The notes under the pieces: model-generated
Databases searched by the model: none
Seen by the model: only the letters and a program-made list of their open reading frames with translations
What the model was told of the DNA's origin: nothing
Assembly (NCBI GenBank): GCA_019694795.1
Contig: JAIBBF010000001.1
Coordinates: 128,370 to 192,369 of the forward strand
Origin: Flavobacteriales bacterium
GTDB lineage: Bacteria; Bacteroidota; Bacteroidia; Flavobacteriales_D; UBA2798
Reading direction: 5' to 3'
DNA length: 64,000 nt
Position numbers and translations under genes: made by a program
In this document: one piece after another, positions 34,417 to 54,999 of the stretch
Numbering within the stretch: the stretch's first letter is position 1
Layout: the number at the start of each line of letters is the position of its first letter

Positions 34417-35418
34417 TTAATGGTTATTTCTTTTCAATTTTGACCTCAAAACCAATAGGATCCGTTTAAATAAAGTTTCATTTTTAGTAGAAATCCAGAT
34501 AATTGCACCGTTCCCCGTCGCTTTCGCACGATTAACAAATCGAGACTCCATTATTTTATAATGAAAATTCATGGCAAATTTAGTCAGCCCCAGATTAACA
34601 TCGAAATGAGAAAATCTTAATTTTTCCAACCAAGTAATGTAATTTGTAATTTCTTTTTCTTCAAAATTTAATAAATCAGTATATCCCAAATGTATTTGCA
34701 AAAGGTTATTAGTACATTCAATCCCAAATTCTGGGAATAATTCTTCATAAAACCTAGTTACTCTTTCTGATAATGTCTCCCGATTCCTTACCGTAACATT
34801 ATGTTCCAAAATCCGGTATTTATATAATGCTTCCTGCAGATTGTGAAATTTGGCAATGGAAAACAAGGAAAGCCACATTACGCGATCTTCCATGTGAATA
34901 TGACGTTCAGAATATCGGATTTGGTGATGGTTTAAAACTGACATCCGAAAAATTGCACTGGCGTGACCAACCATACTTTTATAAAAAATACAAGGTCGAA
35001 TCATCTCATCTGTTTCATTGTATTTCCAAATGGAATTATCATTCCCAAAAGTTTCAATGAATGATCCGCAAACACCGATTTCCGGATGAGATTCCATAAA
35101 GTCCAGGAGTTTTGCAAGACGATCAGGTGTGCTGATATCGTCACCGTCCATTCGGACCATATACGGGGTAGAAATACAGTCTAATCCTCTGTTTAATGTG
35201 CCAACCAAACGGAGATTGGTCTCATTCTTTAAATAAATAATTCTGGGGTCGGAATAAGATAAAATGATATCCTCAGATTTATCGGTTGATGCGTCATTGA
35301 TAATTAAAAAATCAAAATCAGCATAAGTTTGATTTAAGATACTATCAATGGCTTCCTTTAAATACGGCTCACAATTGTAAACCGGCATTAACACTGTAAT
35401 TTTTTTATTCGAATTCAT
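34417..35418 (-). CDS. Family 2 glycosyltransferase
   Basis: A 333-residue GT-A enzyme with VLMPVYNCEPYLKEAIDSIL at the N-terminus, the nucleotide-site NDASTD, and the metal motif MVRMDGDD (near 88-95). Specificity unknown. Its ATG overlaps the stop of the S74 protein gene as ATGA, so a cytoplasmic sugar transferase is translationally coupled to a secreted protein. Confidence 0.88.
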   Translation of the reverse strand: MNSNKKITVLMPVYNCEPYLKEAIDSILNQTYADFDFLIINDASTDKSEDIILSYSDPRIIYLKNETNLRLVGTLNRGLDCISTPYMVRMDGDDISTPDRLAKLLDFMESHPEIGVCGSFIETFGNDNSIWKYNETDEMIRPCIFYKSMVGHASAIFRMSVLNHHQIRYSERHIHMEDRVMWLSLFSIAKFHNLQEALYKYRILEHNVTVRNRETLSERVTRFYEELFPEFGIECTNNLLQIHLGYTDLLNFEEKEITNYITWLEKLRFSHFDVNLGLTKFAMNFHYKIMESRFVNRAKATGNGAIIWISTKNETLFKRILLVLRSKLKRNNH

Positions 35419-37364
35419 TCTTCTTCCAACAAAGCATTTTCTAATCTTTTTAAGCGCTCTTCTAAAGCTTTGTTTTTTTCTTCTGCTAGTTTTATTCTTC
35501 GTTCCAAATCATCAATTTCTTTCTCTTTTAGTTTAAGCTCTGCCGTTTTTACTTCCAATGCTTTAATAGCCGCAAAATTTACTCCATCTGCATCTACCAA
35601 TGAAATCGTAGAATCGCTTTCTCCCATTTTAAAGGCAGCATAAAAATCCTGAGCCATGGGCCCCATGTGGATGATCGAAGAGTCCTGCGTTTTGTAGCTC
35701 CAGGTATATACCGGAAGTGCCTTTAATCCCTCTAAAATATGATCTGAATTTACCTTTCTAATATTATTCTTCATTTGCCGGTCGCTTAATGTAGACCATG
35801 ATCCTCCCCCGGCAGCAAGACTTACCCCAGAAGTAAGAGCCGTATTTGAATACAACATATAACCACCTGAAGCACGCACCATAAATTGGTTGTCTGCCGT
35901 ATTTGTTGTTACTGCAGCAGAAGAAGCATCTGCAAATACAAAACTACCCCGTTTGCCCCCCGTTGAACTATTATATCCCATCGACAATGAATAATCGCCG
36001 GAGGCTGTAGTTTGATAACCGAAGGCTAAGGATGCAATCCCTGTGGAATTACAATGATATCCTATACAAATCGACATCGAATCATTAGCGATAGGTCCCC
36101 TTCCTAATGCAATTGCATATGGACCACTTGCCTGTCCACCCGAACCAACCGCAAAACTATTAAAACCAGAAGCGATATTACCCCATCCTATAGCAGCTGA
36201 ATTCGTTCCTAAAGCCTGATTTTGTTGTCCGGAAGCAAATGAATTATCCCCCTTTGCAATATTGTTAAAACCTCCCGCAAATGAGTTGTTTCCTATATTA
36301 GAAATATCCCATTCCGAAGCAGAAACTGTTCCCGCTCTAAATGCTGCTTTAGAAGGAAACCACATCATTCGTGTTCCGGCACCTGAAATAGGTAAAGTTG
36401 CTCCATTTCCAAAAGTTCCTGCTGCAATAAACCCATTTGGTGACTCCAGATGTAAATCCGCTAGTGGATTTACCGTTCCGATTCCGATCCGGCCGGTTGA
36501 AGTAAATCTTGCTCTTTCCACATTATTTGTACGCAGTACCAAATCAGTTGCGTCCGTAGTACCAAGAAATTGAGAAGATGAATTTATCCCCGAATTTCCA
36601 CTTAACAACCAGGAAGCAGGGATGTTTCCGCAATTCCATGCAAATGTAGAGGAGTCGGAATAGTAAGCATAATTTGAACTATCAGAGAAAGATGAATTAT
36701 TGCTGAATAAGGACGAATCTGCATACGTAGAATATAAAACTGAATCAGGTTGATGAATCAAATAATCAGCAACAATTGCAGTATCTGCATGCGTGGCAAC
36801 TGAACTTGTATAGGCAAACAAAACCGTATCCACTACCATTTCATTTTGTGGAACCCAATTGAAACCATTCCATTTTAATACCTGTCCAACCTGAACTCCT
36901 GAGGTGTCCACATCAAACAAATCATTTATTGAAAGAGGATTTAATAAGGCATTTGCTTTTAAAGCATAAAGTGAATAAGGAACAGAATAAAATTGAAGTG
37001 TGTCGATAAAAGTATATACACTTCCGCCGTTTATATCTACCTCCACTTGGATAAAGTGCGGACCACTACCCCAATTAATTGCACTAAACGAGGGTTGTGA
37101 CCCTGTATTTGTGGAAGTACCCGTACCAATTACTACGAAAAACAAACCTTGCTCATTGGTTGTTGTTTGATGCACTTCTTGCCAAACATTTTGACCATTT
37201 ATTGATCCTTCAAGAATGGTAAAACGCAAACTGATGGATTGGGTGGTGACCAAAGAACCACCTGTATTCCGAAGGAGCCCCTGGTAGCTGATACCTTGAG
37301 GAACACTTTGAGCAAAAAGTGATCCAAATAAAAATATCAAAAGGCTTGAAACAATATATTTCAT
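35415..37364 (-). CDS. Secreted protein with YadA-like head repeats and S74 chaperone domain
   Basis: A 649-residue exported protein. A signal peptide (residues 1-19, ending LFAQ) is followed by a beta-rich N-terminal region shared with the next gene (ISYQGLLRNTGG...). A linker of ADS/YADSS repeats covers about 180-245. Head-like repeats of about 14 residues follow (355-480; NSFAGGFNNIAKGDNSFASGQ pattern). The C-terminus is an intramolecular chaperone of endosialidase type (S74) starting at SDRQMK, with the Ser527 and Lys532 expected of the self-cleavage dyad. A trimeric coiled coil closes the chain (about 600-649). It probably forms a surface trimer. No T9SS sorting domain is seen; the route over the outer membrane is unknown. 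Confidence 0.85.
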   Translation of the reverse strand: MKYIVSSLLIFLFGSLFAQSVPQGISYQGLLRNTGGSLVTTQSISLRFTILEGSINGQNVWQEVHQTTTNEQGLFFVVIGTGTSTNTGSQPSFSAINWGSGPHFIQVEVDINGGSVYTFIDTLQFYSVPYSLYALKANALLNPLSINDLFDVDTSGVQVGQVLKWNGFNWVPQNEMVVDTVLFAYTSSVATHADTAIVADYLIHQPDSVLYSTYADSSLFSNNSSFSDSSNYAYYSDSSTFAWNCGNIPASWLLSGNSGINSSSQFLGTTDATDLVLRTNNVERARFTSTGRIGIGTVNPLADLHLESPNGFIAAGTFGNGATLPISGAGTRMMWFPSKAAFRAGTVSASEWDISNIGNNSFAGGFNNIAKGDNSFASGQQNQALGTNSAAIGWGNIASGFNSFAVGSGGQASGPYAIALGRGPIANDSMSICIGYHCNSTGIASLAFGYQTTASGDYSLSMGYNSSTGGKRGSFVFADASSAAVTTNTADNQFMVRASGGYMLYSNTALTSGVSLAAGGGSWSTLSDRQMKNNIRKVNSDHILEGLKALPVYTWSYKTQDSSIIHMGPMAQDFYAAFKMGESDSTISLVDADGVNFAAIKALEVKTAELKLKEKEIDDLERRIKLAEEKNKALEERLKRLENALLEEE

Positions 37365-37369
37365 GCTAA

Positions 37370-39304
37370 TTATTTCTTAGTGTTTAACTTTTCTTCAAGA
37401 ATTTTTATTCGTTTTTCCTGTAGAGATTGATCCGTTTCTAACTGTGTTGTTCTGTTTTTTAAATCAGCGGTTTCAACTTTGATTAAATAGGAATTTATTC
37501 TATTGTTAATGCCTTTTGCACAAACCAGAATTACGCCATCCATATCTGAACATACAATGGAAGACTCATTTTCACCTAAACCAAATACCTTGTAAAAATC
37601 CTGAGCATATGGTCCAATATGATTAACACCTTTTTGCGATTTATAACTCCAAAAATAAACAGGAACGGAACGCACCAATACCAATACACTTTCGGGATTA
37701 ACTAATTGAATATTTCGCTTTTTTGTACTGTCACTAATACTTGACCAACTTCCTGAACCGGGAAACAAAACAACACCCATTGTATTTAATGGATCAGTAT
37801 AAAAAACATACCCACCATCAGCACGGGTAACAAACATATAATTGGCAGAAGGAACGGTGTTTACCACTGCACTGCCATCACCCCAGATAAAACCACCTAA
37901 TCTTGTTCCCGAACTAACCGTTGAACCTAAAGCGGAAGAAAAATTTCCTTGTGCAGTAATCGCAACTCCAAGTGCTGTTGTAACATTTCCTAAAGCATTT
38001 GCCTTATGTCCGATAGCTACTCCGGTTGTATTCGTGCAACGGTTATGCCGACCTATGCACACCGTTCTTATACCTGTGGCCAAGCAACTATCACCCATGG
38101 AAAACGAAGTTCCTGATCCTGCAATACCTGTTGCGGTTGATTTGTTCACCCTTCCAAAGGAAACACCATTGTCACCCGAAGCATCATTTCCTGAGCCTGA
38201 GGAAAAAGAATAATCTCCTGAAATATTATTTTCGCCAAAAGCAATGGAATATAATCCTGTATTTAAACTATCCCATTGGATCGCATCTGCTTTTCCTGCT
38301 CTAAATGCACTTCGCGTACCTGACCATACCATGGAAGCTCCAGGAGAAAATGGATGAGTTCCTGTACCAGGACTTCCTTTCATTAAAAAACCCAGGTTAG
38401 AATATAATGCATATCCCGGAATACTGGTTCCACTACCTTGTACAAAATCACCAGCAGGATTTATCGACCAAATCAAATTGTTATTAGTTTTAACAAGAAA
38501 AGAAATAGAATCATTCGTGCCAATGTAATTTTGATTGCATTGAAGATTACCATCCAATTCCCAAAGTTGATTTGGATAATAAATGGCATAATTTGCAGTA
38601 TCTGCAAAAACAGTATGTATGGTTGAATCTGCTGTTCCGCTATTTAACGCAAACAAAACAGAATCAGAAAAAGCTGCATATGAAACTGTATCAATGACAA
38701 AATCCCAAACAAAATTCGAGCTATCTACATGGTTTGCTAATAAAGAATTCCATGCAAACAAAACAGTATCACTCGTGTGATCGATTGAATTATAAAATTC
38801 AATTCCATCATAGGAAATTAAATCTCCTTGTTGAACATTTAAAATAGTAGCATCAGAAAGTTCTTCCAGTGTTGGATTTTGGTCCAATGCAACCGCTGTA
38901 TCAGTTTCCAAAGCATAGGGCTGTGCGAACAATCTTACATCACCAAGTGATTGAAATACGCCTGTTCCACTGGTGTCGAAATCGATGTGTAAGCTGATCT
39001 CAGCATCTAACCAGGGAATTTGATCAAAGGATAATACGCTTCCGGCATTGGTGGAAACACCGGTTCCGATAATCGTTGTAAGTAATCCCTTAGAGTCGGA
39101 AATCAATGAATGATCCTCTTGCCAAAAAACAGAAGATGGAACCAGGGTATTAAAAAAACTGAAACGAAGGGTGACGGAATGATTCGAAATTGGCCATGCA
39201 TTGATATCGCGCATTACAGCCTGGTAATAAAAACCATTATTGGTTTGGGTCGATCCCACCAAAGCGCTTAAAACTAAAAAGAATAGAAGGGCCAGCCGTT
39301 TCAT
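37370..39304 (-). CDS. Secreted protein with YadA-like head repeats and S74 chaperone domain (paralog)
   Basis: A 644-residue paralog of the adjacent downstream gene, five bases away. The order of parts is the same: signal peptide (LALLFFLVLSALVGSTQ), N-terminal domain with FYYQAVMRDINAWPIS, ADT/ADS linker (180-245), head-like repeats (350-480) and S74 domain with SDSTKK, giving Ser524 and Lys529 at the same +5 spacing. A short coiled coil ends it. The two differ strongly outside the motifs, so this is an old duplication or a hetero-trimer pair. Its ATG overlaps the stop of the T9SS-sorted protein gene by 4 bp. Confidence 0.85.
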   Translation of the reverse strand: MKRLALLFFLVLSALVGSTQTNNGFYYQAVMRDINAWPISNHSVTLRFSFFNTLVPSSVFWQEDHSLISDSKGLLTTIIGTGVSTNAGSVLSFDQIPWLDAEISLHIDFDTSGTGVFQSLGDVRLFAQPYALETDTAVALDQNPTLEELSDATILNVQQGDLISYDGIEFYNSIDHTSDTVLFAWNSLLANHVDSSNFVWDFVIDTVSYAAFSDSVLFALNSGTADSTIHTVFADTANYAIYYPNQLWELDGNLQCNQNYIGTNDSISFLVKTNNNLIWSINPAGDFVQGSGTSIPGYALYSNLGFLMKGSPGTGTHPFSPGASMVWSGTRSAFRAGKADAIQWDSLNTGLYSIAFGENNISGDYSFSSGSGNDASGDNGVSFGRVNKSTATGIAGSGTSFSMGDSCLATGIRTVCIGRHNRCTNTTGVAIGHKANALGNVTTALGVAITAQGNFSSALGSTVSSGTRLGGFIWGDGSAVVNTVPSANYMFVTRADGGYVFYTDPLNTMGVVLFPGSGSWSSISDSTKKRNIQLVNPESVLVLVRSVPVYFWSYKSQKGVNHIGPYAQDFYKVFGLGENESSIVCSDMDGVILVCAKGINNRINSYLIKVETADLKNRTTQLETDQSLQEKRIKILEEKLNTKK

Positions 39305-45506: not shown

Positions 45507-46582
45507 AGGTTGGTTTTAATAAGATTTACGATTCTAATTTGATCTTCCCTATTTAAATCATGATAAAGAGGCAAACACAATACTCTGCGTGAAATATCTT
45601 CAGATATTGGACACGAATTCCCATTTACAAAAGATAATTCGTTCAATGAAGGATAAAAATATCTTCTAGGAAAAATATTTTCATTATTCATTTCTTTAAT
45701 AACCTTCAAAACAATTTCTTCCGATGTAAAAACTAAAGGAAAATAGGAGTAATTATAGGAAACATCAGGAGAAACGGTAAGGGAATAAACAGTTCCTTCC
45801 TCAATAAATGATTCATGGTAGAATTCCCACTGTTTTTTTCGAACTTTCAAAATTTCATCAATACTATCCAATACACAATGGCCAACTGCTGAATGCACTT
45901 CGGAGTTTTTTCCATTGATCCCTAATTGATGGTAATTCTCACCTCTATGACCAAAACTCTTTAATAAAAACAATTGTTCCATTTTGGATAGATCTGAGGT
46001 AATAATAGCCCCGCCTTCAACCATGTGAAAGATTTTTGTAGCATGAAAACTTAGCGTACTCATGGCGCCAAAATTCAAAATTGATTTGCCCTGTAACTTC
46101 ACTCCGAATGCGTGAGCAGCATCATAAATTACAGGTAAATTATATTTTTTTGAAATCTGTTCAATTCGTTCAACATCACAAGGAAATCCATAAACGTGGG
46201 TAAACAACATTCCTTTAACATCCTTATCAATATACTTTTCAATTAAATCAACATCTACATTGAAGTCAGTAGTGTTAATATCTACGAAAACAGGAACACA
46301 ATTTTCCCATAAAATTGAATTTGTAGTAGCAACATAGGAATAAGGTGTTGTAAGAACTTTTCCACCATTTTCAATCCCCAAAGCACGCATAGCAATTTGA
46401 ATAGCAATTGTGCCATTAGAGACAATTTGCAATCCAGAAACATTTAAATAGGAGGACAATCGAGATTCCAATTCATTTAATTGGGGGCCATTATTTGTAA
46501 GATGACCCGAATTCCAAACCTGAGATAATCTTACTTGCAATTTTCCACTTTCGGGAATAAAAGCTTTGGTTACAGTTATCAT
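45503..46582 (-). CDS. DegT/DnrJ/EryC1/StrS sugar aminotransferase
   Basis: PLP-dependent transaminase of 359 residues that converts a keto nucleotide sugar to an amino sugar. The fold is clear: QIVSNGTIAIQIAMRAL near 55-70, VIYDAAHAFGVK near 150-161, and SFHATKIFHMVEGGAI near 180-195 with the Schiff-base Lys. Together with WbqC and the NeuD-like acyltransferase it forms an amino-sugar modification set: amination, then acylation. The keto-sugar dehydratase is not in the array. Overlaps wzt by 4 bp. Confidence 0.9.
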   Translation of the reverse strand: MITVTKAFIPESGKLQVRLSQVWNSGHLTNNGPQLNELESRLSSYLNVSGLQIVSNGTIAIQIAMRALGIENGGKVLTTPYSYVATTNSILWENCVPVFVDINTTDFNVDVDLIEKYIDKDVKGMLFTHVYGFPCDVERIEQISKKYNLPVIYDAAHAFGVKLQGKSILNFGAMSTLSFHATKIFHMVEGGAIITSDLSKMEQLFLLKSFGHRGENYHQLGINGKNSEVHSAVGHCVLDSIDEILKVRKKQWEFYHESFIEEGTVYSLTVSPDVSYNYSYFPLVFTSEEIVLKVIKEMNNENIFPRRYFYPSLNELSFVNGNSCPISEDISRRVLCLPLYHDLNREDQIRIVNLIKTNL

Positions 46583-47853
46583 CTTATTGACGAATTTTCA
46601 ATTTTCCAATCAAGTTTAGGAGCAAAATATCCTTTTGCTTTCCCCAACCATTGACCTTCTTCTTTTTGACCATCAACTATTGTAAAAGACAAAATACTGT
46701 CTAATGAAGTAATAACTTCTCTTCTATTTTTGACCATTAATAAATTTACTTCGATTGTGCCTGAATTAAAAAGATTTTCCGGCACTTTCAAAACTGCTTT
46801 ATTGTATCCAATGTTTCCCTGATTTATTGTTAAACCACCAGTACCTGTTGCAAATAAAATCTCTCCTTCTGGGCCCTTAAATTGCAATGTAAAATCATGG
46901 CGATCCTTAATGTCAGACAAATGATAGGAAATTTCAATTCCAAGCATGTCATCCATTGAAATTGGGGCATCCGATTCTTTAGAAAAATTAACAACTTGAA
47001 TGGAAATTAATTTACAATTTTCATTGCCAAATGCGCTGTTTAATTCCCAGCTATGAAATTTACGTTGCCCAACTTCCCCTCCTAAATATTTTGAAACTGC
47101 AGAATCAGGACTTCCGTCAAATATTAATTTTCCCTCTTCCAATAAAACACAACGAGTACACAAGGATCTAACTGCAGTCATATTATGGCTTACAAAAAGT
47201 ACTGTACGTCCGCTTTGTGAAACGTCTTTCATTTTACCAAGACATTTTTTTTGAAAATCAGCATCACCTACTGCCAGGACTTCATCAATTACAAGTATCT
47301 CAGGTTCTAAATGTGCTGCGACTGCAAAACCTAAACGAACTTTCATTCCTGAAGAATATCTCTTTACGGGAGTATCGATATGGTGTTCAATACCTGAAAA
47401 AGAAATAATTTCATCTAATTTAGAGCGAATTTCAGACTTAGTCATTCCTAAAATGGCCCCATTCAAGAAAATGTTCTCTCTACCTGTTAGTTCAGGATGA
47501 AAACCTGTGCCAACCTCAAGTAAACTTGCAACTCGACCTTTTAATTTTATTTCACCTTGCGTTGGCGAGGTGATTTGCGACAAAATTTTTAATAAAGTTG
47601 ATTTTCCTGCTCCATTTTTACCAATGATGCCTAATATTTCTCCTTCTACAACTTCAAAATTAATATCCCTCAATGCCCAAAAATCACCTTTTTCATTTGA
47701 CCTGGGGCCAATAATGTTAGAGTCCGCTTCCTTTCCTTTAAGCTTCGAAATGAATTGGCTAATATCTTCACGTAAGGTTCCACTTCCGAAAACTCCAAGT
47801 CGATATCTCTTGGTTAAATGTTCTACTTTAATGACTGTTTTCCTGGAATTCAT
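46579..47853 (-). CDS. wzt: Polysaccharide ABC exporter ATP-binding subunit (Wzt-like)
   Basis: A 424-residue ATPase that powers export of an undecaprenyl-linked glycan across the inner membrane with the adjacent permease. Walker A GKNGAGKST (near 77-85), signature YSSGMKVRLG (near 165-174) and Walker B ILVIDEVLAVGD (near 184-195) are intact. The C-terminal domain of about 150 residues (270-424) is the position where Wzt proteins carry a carbohydrate-binding domain that recognises the finished chain terminus. Its ATG overlaps the permease stop by one base (TAATG). Confidence 0.92.
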   Translation of the reverse strand: MNSRKTVIKVEHLTKRYRLGVFGSGTLREDISQFISKLKGKEADSNIIGPRSNEKGDFWALRDINFEVVEGEILGIIGKNGAGKSTLLKILSQITSPTQGEIKLKGRVASLLEVGTGFHPELTGRENIFLNGAILGMTKSEIRSKLDEIISFSGIEHHIDTPVKRYSSGMKVRLGFAVAAHLEPEILVIDEVLAVGDADFQKKCLGKMKDVSQSGRTVLFVSHNMTAVRSLCTRCVLLEEGKLIFDGSPDSAVSKYLGGEVGQRKFHSWELNSAFGNENCKLISIQVVNFSKESDAPISMDDMLGIEISYHLSDIKDRHDFTLQFKGPEGEILFATGTGGLTINQGNIGYNKAVLKVPENLFNSGTIEVNLLMVKNRREVITSLDSILSFTIVDGQKEEGQWLGKAKGYFAPKLDWKIENSSIR

Positions 47854-48707
47854 TATACAGTATCATTAAAACTACGTTCAACCTTATTAAATATGATAAC
47901 GCCTCCCAAAACCATAATTAAGGTAATTACCAAGCTATAGGAAAGATGAAGCCAATTAAACTCACCTGTGCCCAAAAGACTATAGCGAAATGCTTCAATA
48001 ATGGGCGTCATCGGATTCGCTAAAAGCAAATATTTCAATTTTCCTTCAACCGTATCAAGTGGGAAGATTACTGGACTGAAATACATCATTAACTGAACTC
48101 CAAACCCTACAAGAAATGAAATATCTCTATATTTTGTTGTTAAAGAAGAAACAAGAATTCCAGCTCCAAGAGCTAAAAACGCCATAAGTATCAACAGTAA
48201 TGGAAGAAAAATTATGGTGATATTTCCATTAAAGGAATAATTTTCAACCAAAATAAAATAAAGTAAAAACCCAAAAAAAGTCAACAGTTGAATTCCAAAT
48301 GAAATTAAATTAGAAATCACAATAGAGATAGGAACACTTAATCGAGGGAAATATACTTTGCTAAAAATATGAGCATTCGAAATAAATGTTGTAGAAGTTT
48401 TTGTAAGTCCTAAGGAAAAATAACTCCATGCAATGATACCCGATAAATAAAATAAAATTTTTGGACTCCCATCAGTGCTTAAACCCGCAATATTCCCAAA
48501 AATTATGGTAAACGTTAAGGTCGTAAGAAGCGGCTGAATAATATGCCAAAGTGGGCCAAGAACAGTTTGCTTATAATTCGCTACAAAATCTCGTCTTACA
48601 AATAAAAAAACTAAATCCCTATACCTCCAAAGTTCAGAGAAACCAAAATGCCATAGCTTTCGGTCAGACTTTATGATAACATCCCAGTCTTTAGTATTAT
48701 CCTTCAT
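47853..48707 (-). CDS. wzm: Polysaccharide ABC-2 exporter permease (Wzm-like)
   Basis: A 284-residue inner-membrane subunit with six hydrophobic segments. The entry motif DLVFLFVRRDFVANYKQTVLGPLWHII followed by the first helix is typical of the TagG/Wzm/KpsM group. It pairs with the ATPase encoded immediately downstream. It overlaps the end of the tyrosine kinase gene by 11 bp, in a different frame, directly beside the Tyr-Gly repeat region. Confidence 0.92.
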   Translation of the reverse strand: MKDNTKDWDVIIKSDRKLWHFGFSELWRYRDLVFLFVRRDFVANYKQTVLGPLWHIIQPLLTTLTFTIIFGNIAGLSTDGSPKILFYLSGIIAWSYFSLGLTKTSTTFISNAHIFSKVYFPRLSVPISIVISNLISFGIQLLTFFGFLLYFILVENYSFNGNITIIFLPLLLILMAFLALGAGILVSSLTTKYRDISFLVGFGVQLMMYFSPVIFPLDTVEGKLKYLLLANPMTPIIEAFRYSLLGTGEFNWLHLSYSLVITLIMVLGGVIIFNKVERSFNDTV

Positions 48708-51114
48708 TACCGTCTCTTTTCTTCTTCCTTTTCACTGAAGCATTTTCCTTCTTATTGTCCTCTCCATAACCACTTCCATAACCACTTCCATAACCATAGC
48801 CGTAACCATAGCCATAGCCGTAGCCGTAGCCATAGCCGTATCCATAACCATATTTCGCGTAATAATACTGAATGCGTTTCATCTTAATGCTGTTCAGAAC
48901 CAGACCTACGGAAGTTTGTGTTTCTTTGGATAGGATTTCTTCCAAAAACTTCACCGCATTTCTGGTGGCGTATTTGGTATTCATTACAATAATGGCAGTA
49001 TCCACTTTCGGTATTAATGACAATGCATCGCTGATTAATCCAATTGGTGGGGTATCCACAACTACAACATCGTATTTCGATTTACCAAATTCAATCAGTT
49101 CATCCACCAATTTTTTCACCACCAGCTCTGAAGCATTTGGAGGAACGGGTCCTGCAGTGATTATATCCAAATTATCCACATCTGAATGATGGATAATGGT
49201 TTCTATGGAATCTCTTCCGATCAGGTAAGTAGATGTACCTTTTGAGTTCTCCATTCCCATCGTCTTGTGCACCTTTGGCTTGTGGAGGTCAAAGTCAATT
49301 AACAAAACTCTTTTTTCAGACTTGGCGAGAATATATGAAAGGTTAATAGAGCAAAATGTTTTTCCTTCACCGGGGTGTAAAGAGGAAACCAAAAACACTT
49401 TAGGTTTCGAAAAATCTCCATAATACTGTAAGGTTGTCCGGAGACTTCTGAACGATTCAGTAATTTGAGATTTTGGTTGTTCTTTAATAATGATTTTATC
49501 GTCGGAAACATTTGCAGAAAATGGAATCCCTGCCAAAATATTTAAACTTGTAAGGGACGACAACTCTCTGATATTTTCAATTCGTTCGAAGAAAATATGC
49601 CTGAAAAACGCTACAATAGATGCTAAAACCAATCCGATCAAAAGAAAATATAAAACCTGCTTTTGTTTTCGGCCGGGATTAATTAATCCCACTACCCGTG
49701 CAGATTCAATCAGGCGAACCTGAGGAATAATACCCGCGCGGGCAATAACAGTGGATGCACGTTTTTCTAATAGAAAAACATATAATTTCTCATTCACTTG
49801 AAGCTTACGTTCAATGCCAATCATATCCCGCTCCGATTTCGGAATAGCCTTAATTAAGCCTTCGTAATAGTTGATTTGCTTTTGAACATCATTCATGCTT
49901 TCACCAATCGCTTTTCGGGTATTCTTTATGTAAATCAATAAATCCTTTTTCAGCAATTCCATTTTTCGGTCAACAGCCTTTATGATCTCACTGGATTCTG
50001 TAACACTGTGTTTTTGTTCTATGCGCTTCAGTTGAATATCATATAGCTCATTGAGTGTGGATTCTAAATAATTATCCTTATCCAAAATATAAAACGATGG
50101 AGGCAATAAGCGTTCATTATCGTTCATAAAGACGTAATCCTCCAGTGAATTAATACTTTCAATTTTCAGTTCCAGTTCTCGCTTTTTTGCGTCATAGCGT
50201 ACCAACTCCTGAAAATATTGTTCACTTTCCTTCGGAAGATCAATAATTGCTTTTTTCGTTCGGTATAATTCCAATTCTGTTTCAATGGAATCCATAATTG
50301 AAGTAACCTCATCCAATTGCTTTTCTATATACAACCGGGTACGTTCATTAATTTCCATTTCCGACCTCAGGGAATAATTGACATAAACATCCGAAAGTGT
50401 ATCTAAAAACATTTTTGCGCGTTCCGGAACCTCATCCTGAACTGTGATGGTTAAAATGGAAGTGTATTCTTCATTTTCGATGCTTAGTCCATTCAAAAAT
50501 TTACGAATCAGATTTTCTCTGCTATGAACGGTAAACTGGTAATGATTCATGCTAAGTTTCTCAACCGTTTTTTTATTGAGAAGCTCATTGGTTACCACTC
50601 TCATTCTAAAGTTTTCATCAATAATTTCTTCGTTAAATGGAAAGGTTTTAACAAACTCATCGCCATTTTTAGAAAAACTTACTGTGAACGTTTTGAGGTC
50701 GTTTATTCTGAAATCAATAGGGAACTCATATAATCCATCATTGATTAGATCGATGTCCCTAACGTGGAAGGGCATTCCACCAAAAAGCTCTGTGGTTTTA
50801 ATTCGACCAACAATGTAATAGGATACTTTAAAATCTAACCGATCAAGTGCATTACCAATGATATCTCTCGATTTCAGAATCCGCATTTGATTATTGATAT
50901 CATTGTAAACACCATAGTACCCAAGCCCTTTATACAATGGATTTTGGTAATCATAGGTTTCTCCGGATTTAAGCAGAATCTGACAGCTTGCTCCGTATTG
51001 TTCAGATTTTCGGTGCGCAAAGAAATATCCTATAATGGCTAACATTAAGGGGAGTCCAATAAAAATCCACCAATTTTTAACCAGAATCCTGAGGATTAAT
51101 CTCAGGTCTTCCAT
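48697..51114 (-). CDS. wzc: Wzc-type polysaccharide copolymerase and tyrosine autokinase
   Basis: About 805 residues. An N-terminal Wzz domain is framed by two helices (about 8-40 of this start, and near 480-500), with periplasmic coiled coil between (ERTRLYIEKQL..., AVDRKMELLKK). The cytoplasmic BY-kinase follows: Walker A SSLHPGEGKTF, Walker A' VLLIDFDLHKP and Walker B VVVVDTPPIG. The tail holds Tyr-Tyr-Tyr and then Tyr-Gly repeats before a basic end. It sets chain length and export by cycles of tyrosine phosphorylation. I start it at ATG 51114 (MEDLRLILRIL); the longer frame needs a TTG at 51180 that overlaps a likely -7 box. The first gene of the array. Confidence 0.9.
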   Translation of the reverse strand: MEDLRLILRILVKNWWIFIGLPLMLAIIGYFFAHRKSEQYGASCQILLKSGETYDYQNPLYKGLGYYGVYNDINNQMRILKSRDIIGNALDRLDFKVSYYIVGRIKTTELFGGMPFHVRDIDLINDGLYEFPIDFRINDLKTFTVSFSKNGDEFVKTFPFNEEIIDENFRMRVVTNELLNKKTVEKLSMNHYQFTVHSRENLIRKFLNGLSIENEEYTSILTITVQDEVPERAKMFLDTLSDVYVNYSLRSEMEINERTRLYIEKQLDEVTSIMDSIETELELYRTKKAIIDLPKESEQYFQELVRYDAKKRELELKIESINSLEDYVFMNDNERLLPPSFYILDKDNYLESTLNELYDIQLKRIEQKHSVTESSEIIKAVDRKMELLKKDLLIYIKNTRKAIGESMNDVQKQINYYEGLIKAIPKSERDMIGIERKLQVNEKLYVFLLEKRASTVIARAGIIPQVRLIESARVVGLINPGRKQKQVLYFLLIGLVLASIVAFFRHIFFERIENIRELSSLTSLNILAGIPFSANVSDDKIIIKEQPKSQITESFRSLRTTLQYYGDFSKPKVFLVSSLHPGEGKTFCSINLSYILAKSEKRVLLIDFDLHKPKVHKTMGMENSKGTSTYLIGRDSIETIIHHSDVDNLDIITAGPVPPNASELVVKKLVDELIEFGKSKYDVVVVDTPPIGLISDALSLIPKVDTAIIVMNTKYATRNAVKFLEEILSKETQTSVGLVLNSIKMKRIQYYYAKYGYGYGYGYGYGYGYGYGYGYGSGYGSGYGEDNKKENASVKRKKKRDGNEG
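48763..48852 (-). repeat. (Tyr-Gly)n hexamer repeat at the end of wzc
   Basis: Fifteen consecutive 6-bp units encode 11 Tyr-Gly dipeptides and then Ser-Gly, Tyr-Gly, Ser-Gly, Tyr-Gly. Codons vary (TAT/TAC, GGT/GGC/GGA), so it is an imperfect microsatellite. It would multiply the autophosphorylation sites in the kinase tail. Confidence 0.85.
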
Positions 51115-51177
51115 TTCAATTAGTGCATTATTGTTTTTCAAGGTTTTAGCCACGAGAGGATGAAAATTGATGAATGA

Positions 51178-51185
51178 CAAATTAA
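51178..51185 (-). promoter_or_regulatory. Possible array promoter, -7 box TTAATTTG
   Basis: One mismatch to TAnnTTTG on the minus strand. It is the best candidate within 100 bp ahead of the first gene and gives a leader of about 60 bases to the ATG at 51114. Weak call. Confidence 0.3.
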
Positions 51186-51330: not shown

Positions 51331-53700
51331 ATGTATAGATTTGTACCACTTATTTTTGTTCTTGCAATATTATCTAATTCAAGTATTGCAGGCACGTTTA
51401 CCTCCAATGGAACCGGAGCCTGGGACCAACCCGGAACTTGGATTTTTTCCGGAGATGCCAATGGGATTCCAGATGCAGATGATGATGTTACTATTCTATC
51501 TGGCCATGTAGTTACTGTTGGTGGCGGCATCAACGGGAATTGCCTGACATTAACCGTAAACAATGGCGGTAATATCGCTATTGGTTCTGCCGTACTTTAC
51601 ATTTGGGGTGATTATACCAACAACGGTATAGAAAGCAGTTCGGGTGCTATTTCCTTTAAAAATTCCGGCCTTATTAGCGGGACAGGTACGTTTGGTGCTA
51701 GTGTTCGTTACACTATCGCAAATACCAGAACTATCAGTGCCGGTACAGTTATAACAAAAAACGTAACTGTTCGTTTCCTCGACAATGTGGTTGTAACTAA
51801 CAATGGATCTCTTACTTTAACATCAACCGTAAACGGCAACAATGTTACTTTTACCAATGGAGCAACAGGAAGTTTAACGCTTAAAACGACCGGATTTTTA
51901 AACGGAGCCGGAAATGTATTTAACGCTTCAGCGTCAGGAAATACGGTCACCGTTCAATACAATTCCAGTACGCTACCTGCAGCCAGCTCAAGTACATTTC
52001 ATCACCTGGTGATCAATGGAACAAATATTACCCAGCCTTCTTCTTCCGTTGTAAATGGTAACTTTACAGTGAACGCATCCAGGAGTTTCTCCATGAACGG
52101 CTTCGATTTTAGCGTTGGTGGAAATTTTGCGAATTCAGGAACATTTACCGTTTCTACCGGTAATGTAACATTCAATGGAACAAGTGCTCAAAACGTGACT
52201 TCCTCTTCTGCAATTGCCTTCAACAATGTAACGTTTAACAATGCAAGCGGGGTTAATGTAAACTCTGGCACTTACACCATTAGCGGAGTAATGACTGTAT
52301 CGGCTGGAAACGTAAACACAGGAAGCAACCTGATTACACTTCTCTCCAATGCAGGATCTACTGCCCGTATAGCCCCTGTTACTGGTTCCATCTCCGGATC
52401 CATGACAATCCAGCGATTTATCTCTGCCCGCTCGGCAGGATATTCAGATATGTCCAGCCCTGTTGTATCTTCCACCTTTCAGGATTGGGATAATGAGTTA
52501 TTGCTAATCTACCCGTATAATCCTCCCGGATCATATCCATCCCAATGGTCGTACAATGAAGATGTGCAATTTGATTATGTTCCGATTACATCAGCTGCAA
52601 CTGCACTTACTCCAGGAGTTGGATATGAGGTGTATTTAGACTCGGACGGAGGTTATACCACCTTTAACGCCACCACCTTAACAACAGTTGGAACGCCGAA
52701 TACAGGAGCCGTGAATGTAACTGTGACCCGGGTTAATGATGGATGGAATTTAGTTGGAAATCCGTTTGCTTCTTATGTTTCCATTAATACTCTTAGAAGC
52801 CAGAATTCTGGCGAAATCGCAGCTACCTGGGGTTTTTATGACGAAACCATTTCAGACTTTTCATATACCACCGGTGGTGAGGTTGCTCCTCATCAGGGAT
52901 TTTGGGTAGAATCGAATTTAGCCTCTACAACCTTAACCTTTAATGAAACGGCTAAAACAACGACTACCTCGAGTACCTTTAGAAACAGCGAAGAGGTTCG
53001 ACTTGCGCTTAAGCTGGAAAGTGAAGGTTTAACCAAATTTACTTCTAGTACCTATTTCGAGTTTTTAGGTAATACCTCAACGGAATATGAACAAGGCACG
53101 GATGTTACTTTCAAAAAAGTACCTCATCAGCATGCTCCTGCTCTTTATTCATATAGCACAGATGGAAAAGCGCTACGTATTTCCAAAATGCCTTTTGAAC
53201 TGGAAAAGCAAATCCCCCTCGAATACAACGTTGGCATTGAAGGTTTCTATACGCTTTCGATTAACGACATGAGTATTGCGCAGGATTTGGGTTATAGCTG
53301 CGTGGTGTTGGAGGATAAAAAAACTGGTTCGTTCCACGACCTCAGCTCGGGGGCTTACCGTTTTAATGCAAGTCAGAATGAAAAATCGCGTTTTGTACTG
53401 CACCTCAGCAACAACAACAGCGCCTGCGAAAAAATTCAAAGCTCAGCAGTTGCCGCATTGGAAGGTGTTAACATCAATCGCACCAGCGAAGGTGTGTTTG
53501 TGGAGTACAATTTAGATAGCGACCAAAGCTCGGTGATTTCTGTTGTAAATGTACTGGGTCAGGATATCGTTAATGCCCGCAGCGTTAGCGTATCCACCGG
53601 AAAAATCCGCATCCAGTTACCGGCCGACTACAGTGGTATTTTCATTGTAAACGTGCAACTTGGCGATAAAATGATCAGCAAAAAATTCTTTAATCTCTGA
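51331..53700 (+). CDS. T9SS-exported beta-solenoid-like surface protein
   Basis: A 789-residue secreted protein. A signal peptide (YRFVPLIFVLAILSNSSIAG) leads into a G8-like start (GTFTSNGTGAWDQPGTWIFSGDANGIPDADDDVTIL) and long repeats rich in Asn, Gly, Thr and Val (about 60-340), such as GNFANSGTFTVSTGNVTFNGTSAQNVTSSS, that suggest a beta-solenoid. A domain at about 350-540 resembles those found before the sorting region in Bacteroidota T9SS proteins (DGWNLVGNPFASYVSINTL). The end is a type A sorting domain (VVNVLGQDIVNARSV ... IFIVNVQLGDKMISKKFFNL). Cargo function unknown; adhesion or matrix role is plausible. It is immediately followed by the exosortase substrate gene. Confidence 0.82.
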   Translation: MYRFVPLIFVLAILSNSSIAGTFTSNGTGAWDQPGTWIFSGDANGIPDADDDVTILSGHVVTVGGGINGNCLTLTVNNGGNIAIGSAVLYIWGDYTNNGIESSSGAISFKNSGLISGTGTFGASVRYTIANTRTISAGTVITKNVTVRFLDNVVVTNNGSLTLTSTVNGNNVTFTNGATGSLTLKTTGFLNGAGNVFNASASGNTVTVQYNSSTLPAASSSTFHHLVINGTNITQPSSSVVNGNFTVNASRSFSMNGFDFSVGGNFANSGTFTVSTGNVTFNGTSAQNVTSSSAIAFNNVTFNNASGVNVNSGTYTISGVMTVSAGNVNTGSNLITLLSNAGSTARIAPVTGSISGSMTIQRFISARSAGYSDMSSPVVSSTFQDWDNELLLIYPYNPPGSYPSQWSYNEDVQFDYVPITSAATALTPGVGYEVYLDSDGGYTTFNATTLTTVGTPNTGAVNVTVTRVNDGWNLVGNPFASYVSINTLRSQNSGEIAATWGFYDETISDFSYTTGGEVAPHQGFWVESNLASTTLTFNETAKTTTTSSTFRNSEEVRLALKLESEGLTKFTSSTYFEFLGNTSTEYEQGTDVTFKKVPHQHAPALYSYSTDGKALRISKMPFELEKQIPLEYNVGIEGFYTLSINDMSIAQDLGYSCVVLEDKKTGSFHDLSSGAYRFNASQNEKSRFVLHLSNNNSACEKIQSSAVAALEGVNINRTSEGVFVEYNLDSDQSSVISVVNVLGQDIVNARSVSVSTGKIRIQLPADYSGIFIVNVQLGDKMISKKFFNL

Positions 53701-53707
53701 TTTTAAT

Positions 53708-53715
53708 TAGATTTG
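53708..53715 (+). promoter_or_regulatory. -7 box TAGATTTG directly before the PID-CTERM gene
   Basis: Exact TAnnTTTG match in the 19-bp gap after the T9SS gene. It ends four bases before the ATG at 53720, so transcription would start at or beside the start codon. Confidence 0.5.
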
Positions 53716-53719
53716 CACC

Positions 53720-53947
53720 ATGTCGAAGAAATTCCTCTTACTTATTTTTCTGGCCTTTCTGGCAACGCAAATCAACATGGCTTATGCCGGTATGGGTATG
53801 GGTCCTCCCAACCCTCCATGCGGAGTAGCGCCTTATCCTCCATGTCCGGTGCCTATTGATGGCGGACTTCTTTTCCTGGGGGCAGCCGGTGCCGCTTTTG
53901 CCGGTAAAAAGCTTTACGATAAGAACAAAAAACAACCTACTGCATAA
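53720..53947 (+). CDS. Minimal PID-CTERM exosortase substrate
   Basis: A 75-residue protein consisting almost only of sorting signals. Residues 1-23 are a signal peptide ending AYA. Residues 24-44 are Gly/Pro-rich with two Cys (Cys34, Cys42; MGMGPPNPPC, PYPPCPV). Residues 45-49 are PIDGG, followed by a hydrophobic helix (50-61) and a basic tail (KKLYDKNKK). The PIDGG-helix-basic order is the PID-CTERM signal recognised by Bacteroidota exosortases. Cleavage near PIDGG would leave a mature peptide of about 25 residues. The two Cys could form a disulfide or link to other molecules. The exosortase gene starts 40 bp downstream, across a terminator. Confidence 0.85.
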   Translation: MSKKFLLLIFLAFLATQINMAYAGMGMGPPNPPCGVAPYPPCPVPIDGGLLFLGAAGAAFAGKKLYDKNKKQPTA

Positions 53948-53951
53948 TACG

Positions 53952-53978
53952 ATCCCCGGTCCTCCGGGGATTTTTTTT
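53952..53978 (+). terminator. Intrinsic terminator between substrate and exosortase genes
   Basis: ATCCCCGG (53952-53959) pairs perfectly with CCGGGGAT (53964-53971) around TCCT and is followed by a run of eight T. The exosortase ATG is only nine bases beyond, and no promoter box is seen between, so the exosortase is probably expressed by readthrough at a lower level than its substrate. Confidence 0.85.
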
Positions 53979-53986
53979 CAACGAAT

Positions 53987-54508
53987 ATGGACCTGAATCT
54001 CCGGCATCCGATCGCAAAATTTCTGCTTCGCTTTGCAGGACTGTATTTGCTCTGGTTCCTGCTTTACGATTTATGGCTTCACCCGAAGGGTGATTTGGAC
54101 TCGGGTGTTGTTTTTTACACCATCTGGATGGCAGAAGATCTCCTGGAATTGCTCGGTTATTCGGTAGTAACCTACAGCAGCAGAATTCTTGCGGTGGAAG
54201 GAACCTCCGGTCTATCGGTTGGTGATGCCTGCAATGCCGTAACGCTGATTGCATTATTTGCCGGATTTATGATTGCCTATCCCGGAAAAATAAAACGCAA
54301 ACTCTATTTTATTGCACTCGGTTCCATTTCTATTTATGTACTCAATGTATTGCGCATTGTTGCACTTGCCGTGATGGAAACCATTTCCAGAAGTGTTACG
54401 GAATTCAATCACAGTTACACCTTCACTTTTCTGATGTACGGCTACATTTTTTTCCTCTGGTATTGGTTTATCCGTAAAGAAGAAAAAGAAAATCGACAGG
54501 CAGCATGA
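53987..54508 (+). CDS. Exosortase (archaeo/exosortase family, XrtX/XrtF-like)
   Basis: A 173-residue integral membrane transpeptidase-like protease with about five helices. The family's three catalytic residues are visible: Cys82 in GDACNAVTL, Arg123 in LNVLRIVAL and His142 in FNHSYTFTF. It is expected to cleave the C-terminal signal of PID-CTERM proteins at the outer face of the inner membrane and join the product to an unknown acceptor. The length is that of the short Bacteroidota exosortases. The subtype (XrtX or XrtF) is not decided. Overlaps the next gene as ATGA. Confidence 0.88.
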   Translation: MDLNLRHPIAKFLLRFAGLYLLWFLLYDLWLHPKGDLDSGVVFYTIWMAEDLLELLGYSVVTYSSRILAVEGTSGLSVGDACNAVTLIALFAGFMIAYPGKIKRKLYFIALGSISIYVLNVLRIVALAVMETISRSVTEFNHSYTFTFLMYGYIFFLWYWFIRKEEKENRQAA

Positions 54509-54999
54509 ATCGTTGGCGAATGGTTGGTGGTATTCTTGCAATGATTTTCCTCTTTGCATGTTGCGGTTTATACCGTGATGCCTTTTTTCGTCACCTCAAC
54601 GCGCAGATTTCTGTGCTCGAATACGGAACCGATTCCTTCGAATTTCAATTTGGACTCCAATTCATGGGTAACCTGAGTCTTGCTGCCCTGCTGAAACTAA
54701 AATGGATAGCTACATTGGGATTTTCATTGGTGTTTTTTGGAATTTCCTGTTTGGGAATCCGCATTTGGTTTCATCGCCGTGAACATTATTTCTGGCTGAT
54801 TTTAATTTACGCTGCAGCCATTGTTTTATCGGCACTTGCCATGCTGGTGGGAAAAATTTCGGGGATGCAAGAGCAATGGTATTATTTTGCGCGCTGGATG
54901 ATGGGTGCGGCACAATCGCCGGTATTATTTTTGATTGTTGCGGCATTATTGCTTTCGCCATTGGCAAAAACAACATCTTCTACTCAAACACCGGAATAG
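54505..54999 (+). CDS. Exosortase-associated membrane protein
   Basis: A 164-residue protein with four hydrophobic helices (about 8-24, 50-80, 92-115, 132-152). It is coupled by a 4-bp overlap to the exosortase gene; Bacteroidota exosortases are regularly followed by a small membrane protein of this type (XrtF- or XrtX-associated). The role is unknown, perhaps as a partner subunit. It has no motif I can name. Its last 20 bp overlap the end of the convergent spermidine-synthase-like gene. Confidence 0.7.
   Translation: MNRWRMVGGILAMIFLFACCGLYRDAFFRHLNAQISVLEYGTDSFEFQFGLQFMGNLSLAALLKLKWIATLGFSLVFFGISCLGIRIWFHRREHYFWLILIYAAAIVLSALAMLVGKISGMQEQWYYFARWMMGAAQSPVLFLIVAALLLSPLAKTTSSTQTPE

Follow-up and report, generated by a model that had tools for sequence, protein, structure and literature searches.

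Recurrent gene pairing of PID-CTERM micro-proteins with module-bearing T9SS type A proteins

Genes for PID-CTERM micro-proteins, which consist of an exosortase sorting signal and very little else, are recurrently paired with genes for T9SS type A proteins that carry a rare module of approximately 200 residues. This pairing is the new observation of the present analysis, and it suggests that the exosortase and T9SS systems work together at the cell surface. One such pair is found in the 64,000-nucleotide stretch of Flavobacteriales DNA analysed here (termed the window), in which the gene for a 75-residue micro-protein is situated between the gene for a 789-residue secreted protein and the gene for a membrane exosortase, exosortase X (XrtX). 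We propose that two sorting systems act on one surface assembly, with the short peptide made by XrtX serving as the dedicated partner or anchor of a module-defined subclass of T9SS proteins, and we give this reading an even chance of being correct.

The targets and the purpose of the exosortases of Bacteroidota are an open question, as is the case for XrtF, which is needed for biofilm formation and whose substrates are unknown (PMC10936215). With one 75-residue substrate per genome, this question becomes tractable with a single deletion, and the pairing proposes a concrete partner and joins two sorting systems that are usually studied apart. If the proposal is correct, XrtX gains a function and exosortases become linked to the T9SS. 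The PID-CTERM and XrtX annotations that were consulted are silent on the emptiness of the micro-protein body, the Cys pair, and the T9SS pairing described below. A literature search, the coverage of which lacked most subscription journals, found no papers on PID-CTERM or XrtX, and because of that coverage the absence of such reports is not proof of novelty. No literature report joining an exosortase and the T9SS in one gene pair was found.

Results

The micro-protein and its exosortase

The micro-protein (75 residues; 53720..53947, + strand) matches the NCBIfam model NF046080 (PID_CTERM) at 30.9 bits over residues 44-68 (cut-off 26). By inspection, the N terminus comprises a Lys residue, a long hydrophobic stretch, and an AYA cut site, an arrangement that resembles a signal peptide. 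The putative signal peptide is followed by a Gly/Pro-rich part of 21 residues that contains two Cys (GMGMGPPNPPCGVAPYPPCPV), the PIDGG motif, a TM helix, and a basic tail. The initial annotation of this DNA had described the protein as a signal peptide and a CTERM signal with two Cys and a nearly empty body between them, and this description holds. The near-emptiness extends across the PID-CTERM family, in which the distance from the signal peptide to the PID motif is typically 11-30 residues (e.g. QPGLPSAPSQA-PIDGG). A body that amounts to little more than a sorting signal is thus the family norm, and the protein of the window is not unusually empty.

XrtX (173 residues; 53987..54508, + strand) is encoded directly downstream and matches NF046081 at 179.1 bits (cut-off 170). 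The predicted catalytic residues Cys82, Arg123, and His142, which had been picked out previously from the single sequence, are invariant across 21 aligned XrtX sequences. The XrtX gene overlaps by 4 nt the gene for a 164-residue membrane protein (54505..54999, + strand), in agreement with the coupled membrane protein of the initial annotation. As judged from its profile match (47.3 bits, E = 1.7e-12), this protein is a relative of the XrtX-associated family NF046082 in the right place, under the equivalog cut-off of 75. Relatives are found in 18 loci of the order to which the window's genome belongs (referred to below as the order), and the protein may help XrtX to recognise its substrate or to hand it on. 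AF2 models were obtained for XrtX (pLDDT 92.9) and for the associated protein, which folds into a helical bundle in its model (pLDDT 92). Neither model has a fold match in the PDB, in which no solved structure related to XrtX was found. A collection scan with a two-sequence XrtX alignment matched only the sister species (Flavobacteriales UBA2798) and a Hymenobacter, and no plasmid match was found. In the sister species, a Phd/YefM-YoeB toxin-antitoxin pair (L176:9333-9884; PF02604, E = 7e-15; PF06769, E = 1.5e-32) lies between the XrtX gene and the XrtX-associated gene.

In the genome of the window, which is 99.9% complete, the micro-protein and XrtX are paired one to one. A single PID-CTERM protein was detected and exactly one XrtX, the gene of which adjoins that of the micro-protein; no substrate of this membrane exosortase other than the 75-residue protein was detected. 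The initial annotation had named two findings that would count against it, and the data go the other way in both cases: homologs do lie next to exosortases, and no large PID-CTERM proteins were found elsewhere in this genome. Among 395 genomes of the phylum, PID-CTERM proteins occur in 59 above the cut-off and in 62 at E ≤ 0.001, and all 62 are among the 116 genomes with an exosortase of the XrtX superfamily. In a sample of 150 genomes of the order, 62 have PID-CTERM, 61 of them as a single copy, and every order genome with PID-CTERM above the cut-off also has XrtX. Up to 9 copies per genome are observed outside the order. These counts, like those that follow, were taken over related genomes without accounting for phylogeny, and gene starts in the analysed loci were called mechanically.

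The search also exposes a family of tiny, easily overlooked genes. Among XrtX-bearing genomes of the order without a match to NF046080, at least 9 have an intact, diverged micro-ORF directly upstream of XrtX that escapes the curated model (e.g. L178:3124-3333, L182:5239-5433, L189:413-595, and L191:4856-5044). These proteins still have two or more Cys (e.g. L178, L182, and L189-L191), and in some the motif is changed (e.g. PVSD in L178). Further diverged motif forms are PIDS and PLGG. The one very long PID-CTERM frame of the phylum sample (L146:10118-12973) was rejected as a large PID-CTERM protein. It is a 952-residue MSEP-CTERM protein (TIGR04286, 743 bits) whose C terminus passes the PID-CTERM cut-off (28.9 bits compared with 26), which shows that a model this short can also pick up the signals of other exosortases.

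The very small body, together with the one PID-CTERM match on the 952-residue MSEP-CTERM protein, could be taken to mean that the micro-protein is a vestigial substrate, a functionless remnant of a once larger exosortase target. We consider this scarcely credible, because one intact copy per genome across the order, an invariant Cys pair and a conserved promoter box (both described below), and up to 9 copies elsewhere form the pattern of a gene that is kept.

A module-bearing T9SS protein is encoded upstream

The 789-residue secreted protein (51331..53700, + strand) comprises a module of approximately 200 residues followed by a degenerate T9SS type A C-terminal domain, and its ORF ends 19 nt upstream of the micro-protein gene. 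At full length it has no NCBIfam match, and PF18962 gives only 17-21 bits, under its cut-off; the C-terminal 330 residues match TIGR04183 at 32.5 bits (cut-off 23). The 123 T9SS-A domains encoded in this genome imply that a T9SS is present. The 789-residue protein is likely the operon and functional partner of the micro-protein.

This arrangement recurs. Upstream neighbours were collected for 52 PID-CTERM genes that either lie outside XrtX cassettes or come from the family of the window, and 43 of these neighbours encode a T9SS type A domain (TIGR04183 and PF18962 each give 43), against a background of 49-150 such domains per genome, or roughly 2-4% of genes. At a 3% background, the binomial p value is about 1e-56, which is indicative only, given that the genomes are related. 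The partners share the module ahead of the T9SS domain, and in the scans run it has no Pfam or NCBIfam name. The module HMM was built from 30 sequences, none of them from the order of the window. Because these sequences are partners of PID-CTERM genes, figures are given for held-out and non-training proteins. Held-out matches include the partner in the window (E = 2e-24), that of the sister species (1e-18), that of L094 (6e-18), and those of Hymenobacter-type genomes.

The module marks a small subset of T9SS cargo. Module proteins number 1-13 per genome, compared with 49-150 T9SS-A proteins. The window's genome has two, compared with its 123 T9SS-A domains, and one of the two is encoded directly upstream of the sole PID-CTERM gene. 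The sister species has one module copy, and genomes with five or six PID-CTERM genes have 10-13; among five genomes without XrtX, four have none and the fifth has two. Over the 395 genomes, module and exosortase occur together in 97, the module alone in 33, the exosortase alone in 19, and neither in 246, such that 33 of the 130 module-bearing genomes have no detected exosortase homolog. The module is present in 60 of the 62 PID-CTERM genomes. A PID-CTERM gene lies no more than 1.5 kb downstream of 40 of the 60 best module matches in the 395 genomes, and of 23 of 42 when the 18 training members are left out; roughly one in three of the best-scoring module genes is not followed by a PID-CTERM gene.

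The T9SS and micro-protein genes of the sister species remain paired, and XrtX is located 7 kb away on the opposite strand. The T9SS-PID pair recurs in no fewer than eight GTDB families, its sequences are strongly diverged, and the T9SS gene precedes the PID-CTERM gene in every case. In three loci of the order (L168, L173, and L177), the micro-protein gene is likewise placed behind a gene for a module protein; no T9SS domain was detected in the module proteins of L168 and L177, the two of the three that were scanned. Adjacency to a T9SS gene is not universal, since the partner is not adjacent to PID-CTERM in the large families of the order.

Passive linkage, in which duplication spread copies of an ancestral T9SS-PID gene pair whose products do not cooperate, would be in keeping with the tandem duplicated pairs of L135 and L140 and with the module genes that occur apart from PID-CTERM. 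Such a history is improbable in our estimation, as it fits poorly with a pair that is found in so many families, with one gene order and very diverged sequences, and that persists where XrtX lies elsewhere.

In addition, L206 has runs of neighbouring module-bearing T9SS genes that lack any PID-CTERM micro-gene, which points to a wider use of the module.

The polysaccharide neighbourhood

Divergent from the cassette, the window encodes a Wzc-like copolymerase/tyrosine autokinase (48697..51180, - strand; TIGR01007, 158.6 bits over its cut-off, with Wzz and GNVR matches). Beyond it lie an ABC-type polysaccharide exporter (46579..48707, - strand), which is composed of an ATPase (46579-47853; PF00005, E = 5.5e-24) and a permease (47853-48707; PF01061, E = 6.6e-22), and genes for an aminotransferase, a WbqC-like protein, and a hexapeptide transferase. 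Of 19 loci of the order, 17 have a divergent Wzc-like gene next to the cassette. The Wzc synteny and the nearby export locus support a link of the cassette with a surface polysaccharide.

The initial annotation had placed the mature peptide in this setting as a product in its own right, an anchor, cap, or crosslinker of the neighbouring polysaccharide with no T9SS role. The Wzc synteny and the adjacent export genes speak for the glycan side of that model, as does G491, in which the PID-CTERM gene follows an exopolysaccharide sugar transferase gene, and exosortases generally accompany exopolysaccharide (PMC1569441). The T9SS pairing was missed, however, and a glycan-only role leaves unexplained both the placement of 43 of 52 PID-CTERM genes immediately after genes for T9SS type A proteins that bear a rare module and the persistence of the T9SS-PID pair in the sister species. 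We regard the stand-alone model as unlikely, though a serious candidate. In view of the T9SS-module pairing, the peptide is more likely to be the partner of a surface protein that is secreted than a cap acting on the glycan by itself.

Two further features of this region were observed. At the C terminus of the Wzc-like protein (48697-51180) is a Tyr-Gly repeat (YGYGYG...) of great length, which exceeds that of the usual tyrosine cluster. Within the polysaccharide region (35415-39304), two adjacent proteins of approximately 645 residues have C-terminal Peptidase_S74 (endosialidase chaperone) domains, and one of them has YadA head repeats.

An order-specific Cys pair

At least two Cys are present between the signal peptide and the PID motif in all 69 distinct proteins of the order (68 and that of the window) and in none of 48 outside it. 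Cut sites for this count were set by a simple rule, and the count is hardly sensitive to their exact place. Patterns in the order include CWPPPC-(I/V)-P(I/V)DGG and CGPPFGPAC-PIDGG, and that of the window is CGVAPYPPC-PV-PIDGG. The Cys pair is thus a trait of the order and not of the PID-CTERM family, and it was rejected as a hallmark of the whole family. The earlier expectation that homologs would stay adjacent to XrtX and keep both Cys therefore holds within the order and fails, for the Cys, beyond it. In the XrtX tree, nearly all members of the order group together, which is compatible with a single origin. In three genera of family f3 (g202, g212, and g213; L168, L169, L170, L173, L174, and L186), the PID-CTERM bodies are longer and Cys-rich, with 7-14 Cys in the ORF in place of the pair.

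The retained Cys also bear on whether the membrane part alone matters. The micro-protein could be mainly a membrane peptide, whose CTERM helix acts as a regulator of XrtX, of the XrtX partner, or of the T9SS machinery and is simply removed by cleavage. The helix and tail are indeed the largest conserved part, and some families have only 11 residues beyond the signals. A purely membrane role would have no need, however, for the two Cys and the CWPPPC- or CGPPFGPAC-type patterns that the order keeps outside the membrane part, and we judge it decidedly improbable. The preferred reading, in which the trimmed peptide is the product and not a remnant, is argued for by the equally short body throughout the family and by the Cys pair that the order always keeps.

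Transcription of the micro-protein gene

A Bacteroidota-type -7 box (TAGATTTG; 53708..53715, + strand) is positioned just ahead of the micro-protein start, as previously annotated. No -33 TTG matching this box was seen. The consensus TAnnTTTG occurs within 45 nt of the start in 48 of 68 other PID-CTERM genes of the order, which exceeds chance, since shuffled sequences give a mean of 2.1 and a maximum of 6; outside the order it occurs in 2 of 49.

Between the micro-protein and XrtX genes is an intrinsic terminator or attenuator (GATCCCCGGTCCTCCGGGGATT-TTTTTT; 53951..53978, + strand) with a stem of 9 pairs, 6 of them G-C, and a T tract. Sites that fit this loose terminator class often arise by chance, with 3.9 expected per 3.5 kb. 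The strong terminator of the initial annotation is real in the window, but it is not kept across the family: among 65 distinct adjacent substrate-XrtX pairs of the order, a hairpin with a T tract separates the two genes only in the window, in its family member L094, and in L063, L066, L070, and L085, which belong to a single f58 genus. In 38 of the 65 pairs the two genes are no more than 10 nt apart or overlap, with many overlapping. Transcription of the substrate apart from its exosortase is not supported as a general arrangement by this comparison, and the terminator was rejected as a conserved design. Given the many tight pairs, the few terminators, and the displaced substrate gene of the sister species, separate regulation is a local change that has repeatedly been added to an operon and not a design feature. 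We propose that in the window's family the terminator locally adjusts the ratio of substrate to enzyme. No terminator is present in the 19 nt between the 789-residue ORF and the micro-protein gene, so that co-transcription of these two is also possible.

Discussion

The proposed pathway begins with the 75-residue protein as a dedicated XrtX substrate. Its architecture would direct it to Sec for export, and the PID-CTERM helix would hold it in the inner membrane. XrtX, together with its partner membrane protein, would then cut at or near PIDGG and probably transfer the new C terminus to an envelope acceptor, leaving a Gly/Pro-rich peptide of 10-30 residues. In the order, the Cys pair would probably close a disulfide loop or cross-link the peptide. 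As suggested by the gene linkage, the peptide most likely docks or anchors the T9SS-exported module protein encoded immediately upstream, and, as suggested by the synteny, it may help to tie that protein to the surface polysaccharide of the neighbouring locus. The proposal that the peptide trimmed by XrtX serves the module-bearing T9SS surface protein as a small anchoring or docking subunit, tying it to the polysaccharide exported next door, is in our view as likely to be right as wrong.

The window shares with the PID-CTERM/XrtX system (NF046080, NF046081, and NF046082) its sorting signal, exosortase family, associated protein family, and gene order. With the T9SS type A cargo processed by the sortase PorU, it shares the T9SS-A signal of the partner protein, and in both systems the envelope is where a C-terminal signal is trimmed. 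PorU works at the outer membrane on T9SS cargo, whereas XrtX works at the inner membrane on the micro-protein. Related attachment chemistry for exosortases and the T9SS sortase has already been speculated on (PMC7468200).

The PEP-CTERM/EpsH system (exosortase A) likewise combines an exosortase with a tripartite C-terminal signal and a link to exopolysaccharide. Its targets are multiple and diverse, with a median of eight per genome (PMC1569441), in contrast to the single target with almost no body observed here. The MYXO-CTERM/myxosortase system has an invariant Cys near the sorting motif, as is the case in the order. In MYXO-CTERM, the Cys forms part of the motif itself and processing falls to a CPBP-type protease (PMC11980579), whereas in the micro-proteins the Cys lies 0-4 residues before the motif at a variable distance, is one of a pair, and accompanies an exosortase. 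A MYXO-CTERM-like Cys sorting signal was rejected, as the Cys is outside the motif and absent outside the order.

The closest functional comparison is with XrtF and its associated protein in Flavobacterium johnsoniae (Fjoh_1448/1449), in which, as in the window, a related exosortase is encoded beside a coupled small protein. The XrtX of the window scores 84.7 bits against the XrtF model (cut-off 90). Unlike with XrtX, a search downstream of the module genes in one Flavobacteriaceae-type genome that has only XrtF yielded no PID-CTERM-like micro-protein, other tiny ORF, or XrtF substrate. Both xrtF and Fjoh_1449 are needed for biofilm formation and surface colonization, and their deletion abolishes biofilm and zorbs (PMC10936215), which fits a surface role for the XrtX system.
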